A stretch of 64,000 bases of DNA from Natrinema sp. DC36 (lineage in GTDB: Archaea; Halobacteriota; Halobacteria; Halobacteriales; Natrialbaceae), in NCBI RefSeq assembly GCF_020405225.1, contig NZ_CP084472.1, positions 372,001-436,000 of the forward strand. Reading direction: 5' to 3'. Under the pieces are notes generated by a model. It was not told where the DNA came from, ran no database searches, and saw only the letters and a list, made by a program, of their open reading frames with translations. Shown piece by piece: positions 9,282-52,691 of this stretch. Every line of letters begins with the position of its first letter. The first letter of the stretch is position 1. A program made the position numbers and the translations under genes.

Positions 9282-10697
9282 CTATTGGTACGGGTTCTCG
9301 ACGACGATGGTCTCCTCGCGGCCGGGACCGACGCCGACGGCGTAGATCGGCGTCTCGAGTTCGTCGGCGATGTACTCGAGGTAGGTCCGCGCGTTCTCGG
9401 GGATAGCCTCGTAGCCCTCGGCGGCGACCGCGCCCCAGTCGACTTCGGGCCAGCCGTCGAACGATTTGAACGTGGCCTCACAGCGCCCCCACTGTTCGGT
9501 CGTCGGCGGCATCGTGAAGATCTCCTCGCCGTCATCAGAACTCGGGGAGTTCTGATTGCTCGCCGAGCTTTGCTCGGCGGCGTCGAACTCGTAGCTGTGG
9601 CCGACTTCGACCGTCTCGAGACCCGCGAGCACGTCGATGTGATTGACCGCGAGTCCGGTGAATCCGTTCGCGCGGGCCGCGTGGCGAAGCATCGGCATGT
9701 CGAGCCAGCCGACGCGCCGCGGGCGGCCGGTGACGGTGCCGTACTCCCCACCCTCGTCGCGGATGTAGGTCGCGAGTTCTTCCTCGTCCGCGGCCCCATC
9801 CGCGTCACTATCGTAGTCGGGCGTCTGGTCCTCGACGCCGCCGAGTTCGGTCGGCAGCGGGCCGGTCCCGACTCGAGAGAGATACGCCTTGACGATGCCG
9901 ATGACCTCGCCGTCGCCGACGACGGTCGGGCCCAGACCGGTGCCGACGGTCGCGCCGCCCGCGGTCGGGTTCGAGGAGGTGACGTAGGGGTAGACCCCGT
10001 GGTCGATATCGAGGGAGGTACCCTGCGCGCCCTCGAGCATGACGTTCTCGCCGGCGTCGATCCGCTCTTGCAGGAAGGTCCCGCAGTCGACGGTCATGTT
10101 CTCCTCGGCGAGGCGCTCCCCGTACTCGCGATAGGTTTCATAGAGGTGGTCGATGTCGAACTCCTCGCCGGTCTCCTTGTCGAAGACCTCCTCCGCGAGG
10201 GCTTTCTTCTGGGGAACGACGTACTCGAGGCGCTCGCGGAGCACGTCGGGGTCGAGCAGGTCGCCGATGCGGACGCCGCGGCGGCCGGCTTTGTCCTCGT
10301 AGGTCGGGCCGATGCCGCGTTTGGTCGTCCCGGCGGCGAGGTCCTCCTTTTCCTCCTCTTCGATGCCGTCGAGCGCGCGGTGGTAGGGGAGAATGACGTG
10401 GGCGCGCTCGGCGACCCGGACGTCCGGCTCGAGACCGCGCTCTCGTAGCGTGTCGATCTCGTCGAACAGCGTTTCGGGGTTGACGACGCAGCCGTTGCCG
10501 AGGACGCCGATCTTCCCTCGAACGGCTCCCGACGGCACGAGCGACAGTTTGTACTTCGTTCCGTCGTGAACGACGGTGTGGCCAGCGTTGTCGCCGCCCT
10601 GATACCGGGCGACGACGTCGGCGGCGTCGCCGTAGAGATCGACGACCCCACCTTTGCCTTCGTCGCCGAGTTGCGACCCGACGATAGTGACGGTCAT
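9282..10697 (-). CDS. purA: Adenylosuccinate synthetase PurA
   Basis: A 471-residue enzyme that joins IMP and aspartate using GTP, the first committed AMP step. It begins MTVTIVGSQLGDEGKGG (P-loop-like GDEGKG) and has DNAGHTVVHDG, NGCVVNPETL, GRRGVRIGDL and GTGPLPTEL motifs of the family. The length is above the bacterial ~430 because residues ~373-389 (AAEQSSASNQNSPSSDD) are an apparent in-frame insert encoded by two DNA palindromes, placed between SYEFD and GEEIFTMPP. The core should be intact because the insert falls in a surface connection. A TATA-like box 25-33 bp upstream fits a leaderless transcript. Confidence 0.96.
   Translation of the reverse strand: MTVTIVGSQLGDEGKGGVVDLYGDAADVVARYQGGDNAGHTVVHDGTKYKLSLVPSGAVRGKIGVLGNGCVVNPETLFDEIDTLRERGLEPDVRVAERAHVILPYHRALDGIEEEEKEDLAAGTTKRGIGPTYEDKAGRRGVRIGDLLDPDVLRERLEYVVPQKKALAEEVFDKETGEEFDIDHLYETYREYGERLAEENMTVDCGTFLQERIDAGENVMLEGAQGTSLDIDHGVYPYVTSSNPTAGGATVGTGLGPTVVGDGEVIGIVKAYLSRVGTGPLPTELGGVEDQTPDYDSDADGAADEEELATYIRDEGGEYGTVTGRPRRVGWLDMPMLRHAARANGFTGLAVNHIDVLAGLETVEVGHSYEFDAAEQSSASNQNSPSSDDGEEIFTMPPTTEQWGRCEATFKSFDGWPEVDWGAVAAEGYEAIPENARTYLEYIADELETPIYAVGVGPGREETIVVENPYQ
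9531..9581. repeat. Palindromic element inserted in frame in purA
   Basis: About 51 bp made of two hairpins: arms ATCAGAACTC and GAGTTCTGAT with a 3-nt loop (9534-9556), and arms CGCCGAGC and GCTCGGCG with a TTT loop (9561-9579). It is flanked by the trinucleotide GTC on both sides. It encodes 17 Ser/Ala/Asn/Asp-rich residues that have no counterpart in usual PurA alignments. That makes it look like a small mobile palindromic unit tolerated in frame. Confidence 0.65.
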
Positions 10698-10721
10698 AAC
10701 AGCGGCGGGTTCTTGCCGGGC

Positions 10722-10730
10722 CGATAAACA
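10722..10730 (-). promoter_or_regulatory. TATA-like box of purA
   Basis: On the minus strand this reads TGTTTATCG, centred about 28 bp upstream of the purA ATG at 10697. That is the archaeal TATA distance for a leaderless mRNA. Confidence 0.5.
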
Positions 10731-10967
10731 GATTACGGTATGCGGGTGACTCTACCGAGGGCCGCGAATCCGCCACGCGAGCGACAGCGTCCGCGAAAAC
10801 GCGCTTCCCCGCCGGTCTCGGGTCTGTGACTTGAGGCACAACCGGAAGCGACAGATTCGGGTGACTCGCCCGCGGGCGTCTCCGACACGCCGGCGCCACC
10901 GAAAGTGTTAACTACTCACAGGAACAAACACCTAGTTGAGAGTGGACGTTCCGATTCTCGAGGGGAA

Positions 10968-47470: not shown

Positions 47471-48025
47471 ATGACGACTATCGTCGTGGTGGACAACCAC
47501 GGACAGTTCACCCACCTCGAGCACCGGGCGCTTCGCGACCTCGGCGTCGACACGGAGTTGATCGACAACGACACGCCACCCGCGGAGGTCGACGCCGACG
47601 GCGTCGTCCTCTCGGGCGGCCCGGATATGGATCGGATCGGACGGTCTGCCGAATACCTCGACGCGGACGTCCCCGTTCTCGGTATCTGCCTGGGCATGCA
47701 ACTGATCGCCGAAGAGCTGGGCGGTCGCGTCGGGGGCGGCGAGTACGGCGGTTACGCCGACATCAGCGTCGACATCGTCGACGCGGAGGATCCGCTGACC
47801 GGCTCCCTGCATCCCGAGACTCGCGTCTGGGCGAGCCACGCCGACGAGGTCAAAGCGTTGCCCGAGGGCTTCGATCTGACGGCGAAAAGCGACGTCTGCG
47901 GCGTCGAAGCGATGAGCGATACCGACCGCGATCTCTACGGCGTCCAGTGGCACCCCGAGGTCGCCCACACCGAGGAGGGCGACGAGATCTTCGAGAACTT
48001 CCTGTCGATCTGCGAATCGCAGTAG
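47471..48025 (+). CDS. guaAA: GMP synthase glutaminase subunit A
   Basis: A 184-residue class-I glutamine amidotransferase: catalytic Cys in GICLGMQLIAEELGG (~76), His in GVQWHPEVAHTEEG (~159) with the adjacent Glu. In archaea it is a separate subunit that hands ammonia to GuaB-type ATP-pyrophosphatase to make GMP from XMP. The synthetase subunit is not in the window. The start at 47471 (MTTIVVVDNHGQFTHLEHRA) is fixed by the conserved N-terminus. Confidence 0.95.
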   Translation: MTTIVVVDNHGQFTHLEHRALRDLGVDTELIDNDTPPAEVDADGVVLSGGPDMDRIGRSAEYLDADVPVLGICLGMQLIAEELGGRVGGGEYGGYADISVDIVDAEDPLTGSLHPETRVWASHADEVKALPEGFDLTAKSDVCGVEAMSDTDRDLYGVQWHPEVAHTEEGDEIFENFLSICESQ

Positions 48026-48364
48026 GCGTACGGACGATTCAGCTTTATTGGCGGTCGATATCGTCCGTCTCAGCTGCGAGCTACACGCGTATCGAAATCA
48101 GCGCCCTCCACTCGTACACCGTATTTTCCGGATCTCCTCTCGCTTAGAGAGACAACTCTCCCGGGCGATCGGACGCATCGTCGCTGACTCGATCCGCCGT
48201 GTCGTTCGTCGTGTCGAAGCGACGATCGGTGGCGTCGTCCGCCTCCTGCTCCGCGTCTCGATCAGCTCCGGCGTCACGAGTTATAGCCGAACGCCGATAT
48301 CGGCTCGGAAATGGCAAATGAGCATCCAGTAGTATCTTCACTGCCCACCCAGATATGAGAACTG
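48026..48364. other. Intergenic region between guaAA and lutC
   Basis: A 339-bp gap with no recognised gene. A weak minus-strand frame (48144-48341) is listed separately. A TATA-like box for lutC is not obvious. The CTCTC/GAGAG-type short repeats near 48130-48150 may be a terminator. Confidence 0.45.
48144..48341 (-). CDS. Doubtful small acidic ORF
   Basis: From a GTG at 48341 the frame encodes 65 residues ending in an Asp-rich stretch (DAGADRDAEQEADDATDRRF). The composition is haloarchaeal, but the N-terminal half is not, and there is no clear promoter. It may be chance coding in GC-rich DNA. Confidence 0.2.
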   Translation of the reverse strand: MKILLDAHLPFPSRYRRSAITRDAGADRDAEQEADDATDRRFDTTNDTADRVSDDASDRPGELSL

Positions 48365-48871
48365 ATGACAGTCGACACTGTCGGTCGGTTCGAACGCGCA
48401 CTCGAGGGACTGGAAGTAGGACTCGAGCGCGTCGCGGCCGCCGACGCGACCGAGCGAATCGAAACGATCGTCGCGGAGCCAGCGGTCGGTTCGCCGCTTC
48501 CCTTCGACGGCGTCTCGCTCCCCGGCGAGGTGACGACCGAGCCGACGACCGCCGAACTCGAGGCGGCCCGGACGGGCGTCACGCCGGTCGGCTTCGCGAT
48601 CGCGGAGTACGGCAGCGTCGCCGTCGAGTCGACGGCCGACGGCGCGGAGCCGATCAGCCTCTACCCGGAGCGCCACGTCGCGGTCGTCGCGGCCAGCGAC
48701 GTGGTGCCGGATCTGAGCGCCGGCTTCGACCGCCTCGCTGACGGCTTCGACCGGGGTCGGGACAGCGTCGTCTTCGCCACCGGACGGAGCGCGACCGCCG
48801 ACATGGGTGATCTCGTCCACGGCGTCCACGGCCCCGGCGACGTCCGCGTGATCGTCCTGGAGGATCGATAG
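48365..48871 (+). CDS. lutC: LUD-domain protein LutC
   Basis: A 168-residue LUD (LutC/YkgG) domain protein: MTVDTVGRFERALEGLEVGL, VGFAIAEYGSVAVESTADG, ISLYPERHVAVVAASDVVPD and SVVFATGRSATADMGDLVHG are family motifs. It works with LutA and LutB in NAD-independent lactate oxidation. It ends one base before the start codon of the lutB-lutA fusion gene, so the two form an operon. Confidence 0.92.
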   Translation: MTVDTVGRFERALEGLEVGLERVAAADATERIETIVAEPAVGSPLPFDGVSLPGEVTTEPTTAELEAARTGVTPVGFAIAEYGSVAVESTADGAEPISLYPERHVAVVAASDVVPDLSAGFDRLADGFDRGRDSVVFATGRSATADMGDLVHGVHGPGDVRVIVLEDR

Positions 48872-48872
48872 G

Positions 48873-51251
48873 ATGGCTCAGCGCACCCGAACGGAGCGGG
48901 CCGACCGGATCCGCCACCTGCTCGAGACCGAAGGCGAGGCCATCCACGCCCACGCGAGCGCGTCGAACGCCCGCCGATACGAGACCTACGGCGCGACCGA
49001 CGACCTCGAGGCGCTGCGAACGGAAGCCCGTTCGATCAAGGAAGACGCTATCGGCCGGCTTCCCGACCTGATCGAGACGGTCCGGGAGGCGGTCGAGGCG
49101 AACGGCGGCACCGTCTACCTGGCCGACGACGCCGCGGACGCGAACGCGTACGTGGCCGACGTGGTCGAGTCACGGACCGATGCGAACGGAACGACGGAGG
49201 ACGGCGACACGCCGTCGGTCGTCAAGTCCAAATCGATGACGACCGAGGAGATCGATCTCAACGAGGGACTCGAGACCGAGGGAATCGCGGTCACCGAAAC
49301 CGACCTCGGCGAGTGGGTGCTGCAGGTCGCCGACGACACGCCATCGCACATCGTCGGGCCGGCGATGCACATCTCGCGGCCGGAAATCGCCGACCTGTTC
49401 AACGAGCGCTTCGACCCCGACGAGCCCTTCGAAACGGCCGAGGAACTCACTCGGTTCGCCCGCGACCACCTCGGCGAGCACATCCGCGAGGCCGACGTGG
49501 GGATCACCGGCGCGAACTTCGTCGTCGCCGACAGCGGGACGATCACGCTCATCACGAACGAGGGCAACGCGCGCAAGTGTGCGGTCACGCCCGACACCCA
49601 CGTCGCGATCGCGGGCGTGGAGAAGCTGATTCCGACGCTGTCCGATCTCGAGCCGTTCGTCGACATCATCGCCAAGAGTGCGACGGGCCAGCCGATCTCC
49701 CAGTACGTGACGATGCTTTCGCCCCCGACGGATTCGCCGACGCTGGACTTCGATTCGCCTGACGAGCCAATTACGGGCGACGATGACGGTGCGGCTGACG
49801 GGTCGGGAGCGGCGGACGGAACCGGGGATCCGGATCGCGAGTTCCACCTCGTCCTGCTCGACAACGGCCGCATGAACATGCGCGAGGACGACCAGCTCCG
49901 GGAGACCCTCTATTGCATCCGCTGTGGGGCCTGCTCGAACTCGTGTGCGAACTTTCAGTCCGTCGGCGGCCACGGTTTCGGCGGCGAGACCTATTCGGGC
50001 GGGATAGCGACCGGCTGGGAAGCCGGCGTCCACGGGCAGGAGTCCGCGGCCGAGTTCAACGACCTCTGTACCGGCTGTTCGCGCTGTGTAGACGCTTGCC
50101 CGGTGAAGATCGATATTCCGTGGATCAACACCGTCGTCCGGGATCGGGTCAATCGGAGCGGCGAGTCGGAATCCTACGACTTCCTCGTGGACGGTCTCAC
50201 GCCCGACGAGGAAACGGGCGGCATCGATCTCGGCAAGCGCTTCTTCGGCAATATCGGCACCGTCGCGAAAGCCGCCAGCGCGACCGCACCCGTCTCGAAC
50301 TGGCTCGCCGACGTCGGTCCCGTCCGTAGGCTACTCGAGCGAACCCTCGGAATCGATCACCGGCGCGACCTTCCCTCGTTCCAGCGAGAGTCACTCGTCG
50401 ACTGGTTCGAGGGGCGAGGGGGCTTCGCCACCTCGAAAAGGCGAGCGGCGGAGCCGCGAGTACAGCGAGGCGGGGCGGCGGTCTCGAGCCGGCGGGCGGA
50501 GCGAGCCGGTACTCGAGACGGAGATACCGGCCTCGACCGCGAGGTCGTCCTCTACCCCGACGTCTACACGAACTACGTCGACGTTGACCGCGGGAAGGCC
50601 GCCGTCCGGACGCTCGAGGCGCTGGGCGTCCCGGTCCGCGTGCCGGACCTCCCCGAGAGCGGGCGGGCGGCGCTCTCCCAGGGGATGATCGCGACGGCGG
50701 ATCGGCAGGCCAGTCGGCTCTACGCCGCGCTGGCTGAGGATCTCGACGCCGGCCGGGACGTGGTCGTCATCGAGCCCTCCGATCTGGCGGCCGTGCATCG
50801 CGAGTACGAGCGGTTGCTCCCCGAGGGGTCCGTCGAGCGACTCCGCACGAACAGCTACGAGATCTGTGAGTACGTCTACGGGCTGCTCGAGAACGGCGCG
50901 GACCCCTCGGCGCTGTCGACCGGCGACGGCGCGGAGCCGGTCGCCTACCACTCCCACTGCCAGCAGCGCACGCTCGACCTCGAGGCACCGACGGTAGCCG
51001 TTCTCGAGCGCTGTGGCTACGCGCCCGAAACCTCCAGCGCCGAGTGCTGTGGCATGGCCGGCTCGTTCGGCTACAAGCGGGAGTACTACGAGCTGAGTAT
51101 GGATGTCGGCGAGCGGCTGGCGTCGGAGGTCGAGGGCGCGGAGACCGTCGTCGCGTCGGGAACCTCCTGTGGAGACCAACTCGAGACGCTGCTCGATCGC
51201 GAGGTCCCTCATCCGATCGAGTTGCTCGCCCCCGGTGGGTATCGGGCGTAG
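48873..51251 (+). CDS. Fused LutB-LutA lactate utilisation iron-sulfur protein
   Basis: A 792-residue protein. The N-terminal LUD domain (~60-280) has ITGANFVVADSGTITLITNE. Two 4Fe-4S sites follow: CIRCGACSNSC (~349) and CTGCSRCVDAC (~400). The C-terminal part is LutA-like with a CCG domain (HCQQRTLDLEAPTVAVLERC and AECCGMAGSFGYKREYYELS). The first CCG half lacks the usual Cys pair. Between them, ~514-552 is an Arg-rich insert (TSKRRAAEPRVQRGGAAVSS) coded by palindromic DNA, unlike the acidic surroundings. It likely oxidises lactate or a related hydroxy acid at the membrane. Confidence 0.9.
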   Translation: MAQRTRTERADRIRHLLETEGEAIHAHASASNARRYETYGATDDLEALRTEARSIKEDAIGRLPDLIETVREAVEANGGTVYLADDAADANAYVADVVESRTDANGTTEDGDTPSVVKSKSMTTEEIDLNEGLETEGIAVTETDLGEWVLQVADDTPSHIVGPAMHISRPEIADLFNERFDPDEPFETAEELTRFARDHLGEHIREADVGITGANFVVADSGTITLITNEGNARKCAVTPDTHVAIAGVEKLIPTLSDLEPFVDIIAKSATGQPISQYVTMLSPPTDSPTLDFDSPDEPITGDDDGAADGSGAADGTGDPDREFHLVLLDNGRMNMREDDQLRETLYCIRCGACSNSCANFQSVGGHGFGGETYSGGIATGWEAGVHGQESAAEFNDLCTGCSRCVDACPVKIDIPWINTVVRDRVNRSGESESYDFLVDGLTPDEETGGIDLGKRFFGNIGTVAKAASATAPVSNWLADVGPVRRLLERTLGIDHRRDLPSFQRESLVDWFEGRGGFATSKRRAAEPRVQRGGAAVSSRRAERAGTRDGDTGLDREVVLYPDVYTNYVDVDRGKAAVRTLEALGVPVRVPDLPESGRAALSQGMIATADRQASRLYAALAEDLDAGRDVVVIEPSDLAAVHREYERLLPEGSVERLRTNSYEICEYVYGLLENGADPSALSTGDGAEPVAYHSHCQQRTLDLEAPTVAVLERCGYAPETSSAECCGMAGSFGYKREYYELSMDVGERLASEVEGAETVVASGTSCGDQLETLLDREVPHPIELLAPGGYRA
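50412..50530. repeat. Palindromic insert in the lutB-lutA fusion
   Basis: Contains a hairpin GCGGC-GGA-GCCGC (50445-50457) and a stem GTCTCGAG + CCGGC / GCCGG + CTCGAGAC (50481-50519) with an 11-nt loop. It encodes ~40 residues with 11 Arg/Lys in an otherwise acidic protein, and it lies in the linker between the LutB and LutA parts. Confidence 0.55.
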
Positions 51252-51392
51252 CGGGCGCTCGGCATCTTCCGCTGCGGTCGCGGTCCCTTTCGCGGATGTC
51301 GTTGAGGAGGGACTGTCGAGTCCCGACCGCCGATCCGGGGGAGCATCGGAGAAAGACGTAAGTATGTGATACGGTGTATCATAACGCGGTAA

Positions 51393-52691
51393 ATGTCCAC
51401 AGTAGACAGGGACGTTCTTCGCGATCGGATCGAGGACAAGCGCGAGGAACTCGTCGATCTCCTCGAAGAACTCATCGCCCAGGAGTCCGTGACCGGCAAC
51501 GAAAAGCCCGCACAGGAGGTCGTCGTGTCGCGGTTGGAATCCCGCGGGCTCGAGGTCGACACGTGGGAACCCGACGCCGACGACCTGCGGGACCACCCCG
51601 GGTTCTTCGAGACCTCGTCGTACGCGGCGTACGGGTACGAGGACCGCCCGAACGTTGCAGCGACGAGGGACGGCGTTGGAGACGGGCGATCGCTAACCCT
51701 GAGCGGACACGTCGACGTCGTTCCGGTCGACGAAGACGAGTGGCGCTACGACCCGTGGGACGCCACCGTCGAAGACGGTCGCCTCTACGGACGTGGGAGC
51801 AACGACATGCTCGGCGGCGTCGCATCCATTCTCGTCGCCGTCGAGGCGCTCGACGACCTCGGCGTCGAACTGGCCGGCGACCTCACGATCCAAACGACCA
51901 TCGAGGAGGAGGACGGCGGCCCCGGCGGTGTCCTCTCCGCGCTCGAACGCGGCTATCGGCCCGACGCGGCGATCATCACCGAGCCCTCCGGCCTCCCGAA
52001 CATCGGGATGGCGAGCGCCGGTGTCATGTACTTCCGCGTTCGCGTGCCGGGGAAGTCCGCACACGCCGCGCAGGGTTACGCGGGCGTGAACGCCATCGGG
52101 AAGGCGACGAAACTCTATCGGGCGCTGGACGAACTGGATCGGGAACGGAAATCGCGCATCTCCTACGAACCGGCCGTCCGGCAGAACCCGAAACTCGACG
52201 GCCACGAGACTAACCTGAACGTGGGAACGATCGAGAGTGGCGATTGGCCCTCGACGGTGCCGTCCGGAGCGGTGTTGGAAGGACGCATCGGTTGGCCACC
52301 CGGCGAAACGCGCGAGGAGGTTCGGGCGGACGTGGAAGCGGCCGTGCGAGCGGTCACCGAGGACGACGAATGGCTGTCCGAGCATCCGCCCGAGTTCGAG
52401 TGGTTCGGCTGGTACGCCGCGCCGCACGAACTCGACACCGACGAGGAAATCGTCCGACTCGCGCGGGAGAACGCGGAGACGATTACCGGCGAGAAAACGA
52501 CCTTCGGCGGCGGAAGCGCCGGCAACGACGAGCGGTTCTACAATCGGTATTACGACATTCCCTGTCCATCGGTCGGTCCACGCGGCGCGAACATCCACGG
52601 TGCCGACGAGTACGTGGAGATCGAGTCGCTCGTCGAGACGGCACAGACGCTCGCGCTGACGGCGATCGACTGGTGTGGAACCGGAGAGTAA
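51393..52691 (+). CDS. M20-family metallopeptidase/deacylase (ArgE/DapE-like)
   Basis: A 432-residue enzyme with the M20 zinc ligands: LSGHVDVVPVDEDEW (His and Asp), GRGSNDMLGGVAS (Asp), and TTIEEEDGGPGG (Glu pair). A dimerisation domain (KSAHAAQGYAGVNAI) interrupts the catalytic one, and a C-terminal His is in ANIHGADEYVEIE. The family removes acyl groups from amino acids or cleaves dipeptides. Substrate unknown; no pathway genes are adjacent. Confidence 0.92.
   Translation: MSTVDRDVLRDRIEDKREELVDLLEELIAQESVTGNEKPAQEVVVSRLESRGLEVDTWEPDADDLRDHPGFFETSSYAAYGYEDRPNVAATRDGVGDGRSLTLSGHVDVVPVDEDEWRYDPWDATVEDGRLYGRGSNDMLGGVASILVAVEALDDLGVELAGDLTIQTTIEEEDGGPGGVLSALERGYRPDAAIITEPSGLPNIGMASAGVMYFRVRVPGKSAHAAQGYAGVNAIGKATKLYRALDELDRERKSRISYEPAVRQNPKLDGHETNLNVGTIESGDWPSTVPSGAVLEGRIGWPPGETREEVRADVEAAVRAVTEDDEWLSEHPPEFEWFGWYAAPHELDTDEEIVRLARENAETITGEKTTFGGGSAGNDERFYNRYYDIPCPSVGPRGANIHGADEYVEIESLVETAQTLALTAIDWCGTGE

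Follow-up and report, generated by a model that had tools for sequence, protein, structure and literature searches.

The insert in the LUD-domain gene of Natrinema sp. DC36 is very probably a copy of a short DNA element, built of two hairpins, that is dispersed in haloarchaeal chromosomes, and this is the best explanation of the data as a whole. The element forms a family with a paired structure, is present in frame in unrelated core genes, and differs in presence and absence between close species. The copy lies in a window of 64,000 nucleotides (the whole stretch of DNA that was analysed), and its surroundings are as follows.

50414–50462, plus strand: two-hairpin element matched by model R1 with 60.6–60.7 bits, covering about residues 514–530 of the host protein
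50415–50435, plus strand: hairpin 1, CGAGGGGGC-TTC-GCCACCTCG, with a triloop; a 9-bp variant with one G-A mismatch (50420/50430), from the fold and comparison with loci L010, L011, L014, and L015
50436–50440, plus strand: purine spacer AAAAG between the hairpins, from the sequence
50441–50461, plus strand: hairpin 2, GC-GA-GCGGC-GGA-GCCGC-GA-GT, with a triloop and an internal GA/GA mismatch
50424–50474 (approximate), plus strand: 51-nt (17-codon) excess over an empty ortholog, from linkers of 69 (L009) and 52 (L012) residues
50481–50519, plus strand: 13-bp palindrome of the preliminary description, in homologous linker beside and outside the R1 core; absent from L010
48873–51251, plus strand: host open reading frame (ORF), 792 amino acids, with a LUD domain, a 4Fe-4S dicluster, and a Cys-rich (CCG-like) end; a LutB-LutA or LdhH-like fusion

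The LUD domain of the host ORF was detected with 132 bits (PF02589). The curated models NF045670 (LdhH, 419 bits) and TIGR00273 (LutB, 331 bits) each scored below the curated cut-off, and the CCG model reached 20.5 (cut-off 20.6). Because the best curated models remain under their cut-offs, "lutB-lutA fusion" is a fair description of the ORF rather than a proven assignment. Homologs of the protein at E ≤ 1e-100 were found in 99 of the 119 genomes searched, the own genome counted, and its closest named relatives belong to Natrinema species. No relative of the protein was found in the viral contigs scanned. The linker that holds the insert is located between the iron-sulphur and Cys-rich regions. 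In an AlphaFold model, residues 519–534 have a pLDDT below 50, within a prediction that is weak overall (mean pLDDT 67.9).

The element has the general form CGAGGNGGC-NNN-GCCNCCTCG, a purine spacer, and GCGAGCGGC-NNN-GCCGCGAGY, and the matched core is 45–61 nt long. R1 is a covariance model made from alignment A1 (18 copies), which has the window copy and other LUD copies among its rows; therefore, the scores of these copies are partly built in. The window core scored 60.6 bits (E 1.2e-13), and the next best match in the 64 kb scored 17.4 bits. In A1, 98.0% of the cells are paired with 16 both-side changes, and none of 500 shuffles was as high. In A2, whose 79 distinct rows were fitted to R1, 98.6% are paired with 137 both-side changes (shuffled 35.5; slid versions ≤7). 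A palindrome by pure chance is ruled out by the window background and the covariation. Among the 35 coding copies described below, 32 have full complementarity over the outer 7-nt arm of stem 1, and 13 different arm sequences occur. Folded as DNA, the window core reached −14.5 kcal/mol (z −2.11, 6 of 200 shuffles as good), which is modest because hairpin 1 has a mismatch. Positions −4 to −1 before the hairpins favour G, A/G, G/A, and A. Among LUD orthologs with identical arms, the loop of hairpin 1 is either GAA or its reverse complement TTC, swapping Glu for Phe (L010 vs L011; L014 and L015 vs L022). Inversion of the hairpin in the DNA could produce such a switch, and allele exchange or substitutions would also fit. 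At filled and empty sites read by eye, the element ends resemble the targets (GAG/GCGAG); therefore, no target-site duplication is readable.

In the own genome (G000), R1 gave 47 matches at E ≤ 1 with the window copy third best, and at least 22 of them scored ≥39.8 bits; these counts are lower bounds (150 of 11106 candidates scored). The preliminary description had supposed a dispersed palindromic element in a tolerant linker with intergenic relatives, and these copies, which lie in and outside genes, agree with it. Fifteen of 16 other chosen haloarchaeal genomes, from eight families, carry 2 to 29 R1 matches at E ≤ 1e-6, and G081 has no match at this threshold. In a phylum sample of 80 genomes (E ≤ 1e-7, stricter filters), R1 was found in 11 of 11 genomes within the order and in 0 of 69 outside it; the outside set, drawn without GC matching, is a weaker control. 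A search for hairpin 2 and its tail in 125 family genomes gave matches in the same gene in several species and in intergenic-looking DNA, with the same order of parts in both kinds of location. The pattern of spacer plus hairpin 2 occurred in 43 of the 125 family genomes, and the reversed control in none of them. In the own genome, a plain DNA search with the whole segment returned the self-match and short weak pieces alone, and the exact hairpin-1 pattern with up to three mismatches had a single occurrence. A general repeat search returned nothing. Seven tandem R1 matches spaced by about 64 nt form an element array at G134:C1:963561-964007. The intergenic copies L157, L159, and L122 are followed by a shared tail, GGAGTGCTTTTG...TTTTGCCGAGG, which is perhaps part of another repeat.

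Eighty copies from four genomes (G000, 22, all ≥39.8 bits; G018, 18 of 21; G128, 23 of 29; G006, 17 of 18) were sorted by a simple codon model into 35 coding, 40 noncoding, and 5 unsure copies; L179 and L186 were called noncoding yet lie inside ORFs. All 35 coding copies are in the sense orientation and without an in-frame stop. The frame running from S-E-A-x-R-A-S onward is used by 31 of them; three others are the LUD-type variant with a 9-bp stem, in phase from the TCG codon, and one differs. Stops per frame over the 80 copies are 8, 10, and 7 in antisense and 7, 33, and 8 in sense, where the last is the favoured frame. Since most copies are free of stops in five of the six frames, stops do not force the choice of strand and frame. 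The outer arm is CGAGGCG in 15 of 35 coding copies and CGCGGCG in 29 of 40 noncoding copies, and the two sets perhaps differ here through selection on codons. Ser, Ala, Arg, and Glu abound in the encoded peptides, where Arg plus Lys amount to 18.7% (flanks 7.9%) and Asp plus Glu to 19.5% (flanks 23.0%). The basic, Arg-rich character first ascribed to the insert is true of the window copy, with a net charge of +4, but the predicted mean over the 35 coding copies is −0.14, which is approximately neutral. In the own genome, the hosts are iPGM (two copies), an AhpC/TSA redoxin, an M32 carboxypeptidase, PepF, LeuS, a DUF7122 protein, a 2-oxoacid dehydrogenase acyltransferase (E2), and an HhH-GPD protein with a weaker copy (33.6 bits).

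Orthologs of iPGM, PepF, M32, LeuS, and the redoxin differ in length by 42–63 nt, always by multiples of three and in some cases between sister species. Site 1 of iPGM (+48 nt) is filled in 4 of the 21 rows read (G000, G018, G025, and G006) and empty in 14 of 21; it is degenerate in G017 and G003 and holds a different array in G021. Site 2 of iPGM (+63 nt) is filled in just two of the 21 rows, those of G000 and G015, and is thus empty in the close relative G018. These rows are 21 of 29 iPGM loci, the motif not having been located in the other eight. The M32 site (+51 nt) is filled in the own genome and empty in G018, G006, and G021. Another 12-residue insert is seen nearby in the M32 gene of G025. 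The PepF site (+51 nt) is filled in the own genome and empty in G018 and G021; the LeuS site (+42 nt) is filled in the own genome and G027 and empty in G018, G014, and G025; and the redoxin site (+48 nt) is filled in the own genome and G018 and empty in G006 and G021. The reading left out PepF L277, L278, and L279 and LeuS L285, and the length gaps of G018 (PepF, M32, LeuS, and iPGM site 2) were taken from flank BLAST. The four HhH-GPD orthologs that were read all carry the element, and no empty site was seen among them. The best-matching solved homologs have no insert at the corresponding place in M32 (7a03), PepF (2qr4), and iPGM site 2 (1ejj); the alignment to solved homologs is less clean at the insert in iPGM site 1 and LeuS. 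An intein or a spliced intron is ruled out because the six measured inserts are 42–63 nt long, are multiples of three, and have no in-frame stop.

The hairpins may also act at the RNA level, by affecting the stability, processing, or pausing of mRNA or by providing a protein site, mostly in intergenic copies, with the coding copies being by-catch or also used. We regard this as rather unlikely, and it may hold alongside the dispersed element. It would agree with the strong covariation and with the several intergenic copies embedded in longer repeated stretches. The element DNA is also more alike than either 90-nt flank in all eight chosen ortholog pairs, which are few, include three at one site, and were compared over ungapped flanks, that of the LUD 3′ side being clearly shifted; this likeness is in favour of the dispersed element as well. 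However, the coding copies behave as translated inserts would, since 35 of 35 are sense and without an in-frame stop, and Rfam gave sub-threshold matches only, with no family at the gathering score, in 48000–52500.

With somewhat less than even probability, copies of the dispersed element would be made through a single-stranded hairpin intermediate, by template switching or strand invasion while DNA is replicated or repaired, or by some enzyme. With a length divisible by three, an insert would be translated as a hydrophilic stretch rich in Ser, Ala, Arg, and Glu. Selection would then keep copies in surface loops or linkers, in the sense orientation and mostly in the frame S-E-A-x-R-A-S...R-A-A-x-P-R. 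In the LUD gene, the element occupies a linker that varies anyway and probably has little effect on the enzyme; its "function" is likely its own persistence. No mobilising enzyme was found.

A more specific agent would be a Y1 (HUH) transposase that acts on the hairpins in trans, making R1 a non-autonomous transposon of the REP/RAYT or IS200/IS605 type. This is compatible with the observed family, structure, and distribution of the dispersed element and differs in the agent, which we consider unlikely. The short purine-rich tag before the hairpins, the small size, and the dispersed copies are in its favour, and IS605-related palindromic PATEs occur in Haloquadratum according to the sections of PMC3119063 used here. 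However, the tag is GARA-like rather than GTAG, and 8 of 17 genomes (G000, G021, G006, G134, G122, G076, G077, and G088) have no Y1_Tnp match at E ≤ 1e-5. Genomes among these are rich in copies (at least 22 in the own genome, 18 in G006, and 18 in G134), while G081, with a Y1 gene, yields no R1 match at E ≤ 1e-6. Over the 17 genomes, the transposase does not track R1 copy number. A Y1 enzyme may have been present once and since lost.

The linker of the LUD protein was read in 110 loci, minus L096 and L118. An RGG and a basic stretch of variable length lie between DWFE and DREVVLYPD in all 28 genus rows read (the own included), and a basic linker is also found in closer homologs of other Natrialbaceae genera, such as L037, L038, L046–L050, and L113. 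In more distant homologs, among them L065, L082, L088, L089, L091, L094, and L110 of Natrialbaceae, the linker is short and has no basic stretch; therefore, this stretch is not a family-wide trait. Orthologs without the element still have a basic linker of the RGGxxASSRRAxRA type. Therefore, part of the Arg content belongs to the native linker, and the element edges in the LUD gene are ambiguous. The preliminary description held that a basic segment conserved in orthologs with a different DNA sequence would speak against an insert, and this is half the case, as the basic linker is kept where the element is missing. An additional AAEPR segment is present in the window, L010, and L015 and in a longer version in L011; segments of this type are found in other genera too (L052, L129, and L133). 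The 17-residue excess over the empty ortholog L012 covers RGG-FATSKRRAAEPRVQRGG, and the exact placement of the 51 nt is ambiguous because RGG is repeated.

The region 50412–50530, previously described as a whole as the insert, does encode an Arg-rich stretch within the fusion protein, as its sequence and translation confirm. Its strong self-complementarity was reproduced (RNA fold −61.1 kcal/mol, z −2.87, equalled by none of 200 shuffles), and the reported 13-bp stem with an 11-nt loop is present, with 50481–50493 pairing with 50505–50509 and 50512–50519 around a TA bulge. However, only 17 residues (51 nt) exceed the empty ortholog, and the remainder is homologous linker. An inserted palindromic element exists as well, in the form of the two-hairpin core at 50414–50462, but the 13-bp palindrome is not that element. 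The region of this palindrome folds with z −2.22 (6 of 200 shuffles as good); L010, the relative with the most similar protein, is without the palindrome and gives z −0.29 (69 of 200).

R1 scored ≥40 bits in 8 of the 54 LUD loci searched. In a LUD tree of 42 rows made with the linker removed, the six element-bearing rows need at least four presence changes, three of which are forced by starred branches. The LUD gene of G021 has a second R1 copy (58.5 bits), which on our reading appears to sit within hairpin 2 of the first copy and to break it. Other LUD-type genes, L154 (G010), L230 (G018), and L317 (G006), have the variant with a 9-bp stem in the matching linker, KRGGNATSKKRA. They look like a paralogous gene, and the pattern suggests that the element was inserted long ago, spread by gene conversion, or was gained repeatedly at one site. 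The LUD linker of Halogeometricum pallidum has an R1-like match (L090, 4440–4488, 32.9 bits), and that of Halorussus amylolyticus (L067) has a 16-bp triloop palindrome of unrelated sequence.

Ordinary linker evolution would make the insert an Arg/Ala/Gly-rich low-complexity linker that has lengthened through slippage and tandem duplications in GC-rich DNA, with the palindrome as a by-product of composition. The basic, length-variable linker of the 28 genus rows would suit it, as would the doubled RGGHAAS in L052 and the 15 perfect hairpins of the whole window, which are little above the mean of 10.5 in 20 dinucleotide shuffles. As an explanation of the insert it is highly improbable, since an identical core type with covarying stems occurs in unrelated genes and intergenic DNA, orthologs have empty sites, and 60.6 bits stand against a 17.4-bit background. 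It is strongly disfavoured for the R1 core, whereas the remaining linker (about 50475–50530) likely did evolve in this way.

Tandem hairpins of other sequence are also found within genes. One pair is located in the gene at 9285–10751 (minus strand), which we take to be purA from a sequence motif and the name in the preliminary description.

9534–9579, minus strand: tandem pair of triloop hairpins (8 and 10 bp, 4-nt spacer), in frame in purA; not an R1 match

This stretch encodes AAEQSSASNQNSPSSD and resembles R1 in architecture alone, its sequence being unrelated; in this sense, the earlier view that the LUD insert repeats what is seen in purA, though with another element, fits. In-frame tandem triloop hairpins unrelated in sequence to R1 are present at L354, 15078–15130, too. 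A sequence-blind scan of 464 kb found five tandem triloop hairpin pairs, those of purA and L354 among them, and none in three shuffles; the result depends on the setting, as 5-bp stems with spacers of 3–5 gave no excess (2 vs 1, 2, and 1). The iPGM gene of G021 (L253) has four tandem triloop hairpins (9, 9, 7, and 10 bp) with short spacers near the place of R1 in the others, and the last of them appears to hold host sequence plus its inverted copy. Possibly, then, the constant is the architecture and not the sequence, and we tentatively suggest a haloarchaeal DNA-level process that would write triloop-hairpin arrays into genes and spacers and keep their arms paired. This suggestion is based on the unrelated in-frame hairpins of purA and L354, the four-hairpin array of G021 together with the Halorussus palindrome, the 13 outer-arm sequences of the 35 coding copies, which nearly always have a perfect complement, and the GAA and TTC loops on identical arms in LUD orthologs.

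With the dispersed R1 element, protein-coding palindromes, known from some bacteria and from a single methanogen, extend to eight families of haloarchaea. This extension rests on at least 22 copies in the own genome and on the presence/absence pairs in core enzymes. Each in-frame copy is predicted to lengthen its protein by a short peptide segment. In the annotation of haloarchaeal proteins, short inserts rich in Arg, Ser, and Glu call for caution, since a dispersed DNA element may lie behind them instead of a functional motif. Some haloarchaea are genetically tractable; therefore, the spread of the element and its effects on proteins are directly testable.

A literature search, with subscription journals partly covered, yielded no report that we recognised as describing the R1 element. 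Several known systems are comparable, as far as the parts of the cited papers used here describe them. The SMRs of Haloquadratum walsbyi are transposase-free small repeats whose mobilisation is called enigmatic, and these and the PATEs resemble R1 as small haloarchaeal repeats without a transposase (PMC3119063). However, SMR-A is about 110 bp long with terminal inverted repeats, and in-frame insertion into genes does not appear in that part of the description (PMC3119063). REPs, the GTAG and CGTC palindromes, are likewise small hairpin repeats, some of which are mentioned within coding regions (PMC3733652). Unlike them, R1 lacks the GTAG tag and combines two different hairpins in a fixed order, and the own genome gave no Y1 transposase match.

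Protein-coding palindromes are known in Rickettsia, Wolbachia, and Methanocaldococcus jannaschii (PMC2229807, PMC2996958). The palindromic coding repeats of M. jannaschii (PMC2996958) show that palindromes fused to protein genes have a precedent in archaea, although in a methanogen, and are compared here by description; PMC2229807 cites Suyama et al. 2005 for archaeal gene-fused repeats. The Rickettsia palindromic elements (RPEs) and the Wolbachia palindromic repeats are, like R1, short palindromes found in intergenic DNA and in frame in genes of conserved proteins (PMC2229807, PMC2996958). R1 is RPE-like in kind, with many palindromic copies per genome, in-frame copies in conserved genes that are empty in orthologs, and 40 of 80 copies noncoding. 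However, RPEs are given as 105–146 bp with long stem-loops and in bacteria (PMC2229807, PMC2996958), and R1, with two hairpins in 42–63 nt, departs from RPEs proper in length and shape. Set beside the available RPE description, R1 is thus distinguished by its small addition, its two hairpins, the GA/GA mismatch in the second, its compensating changes, and its haloarchaeal hosts.
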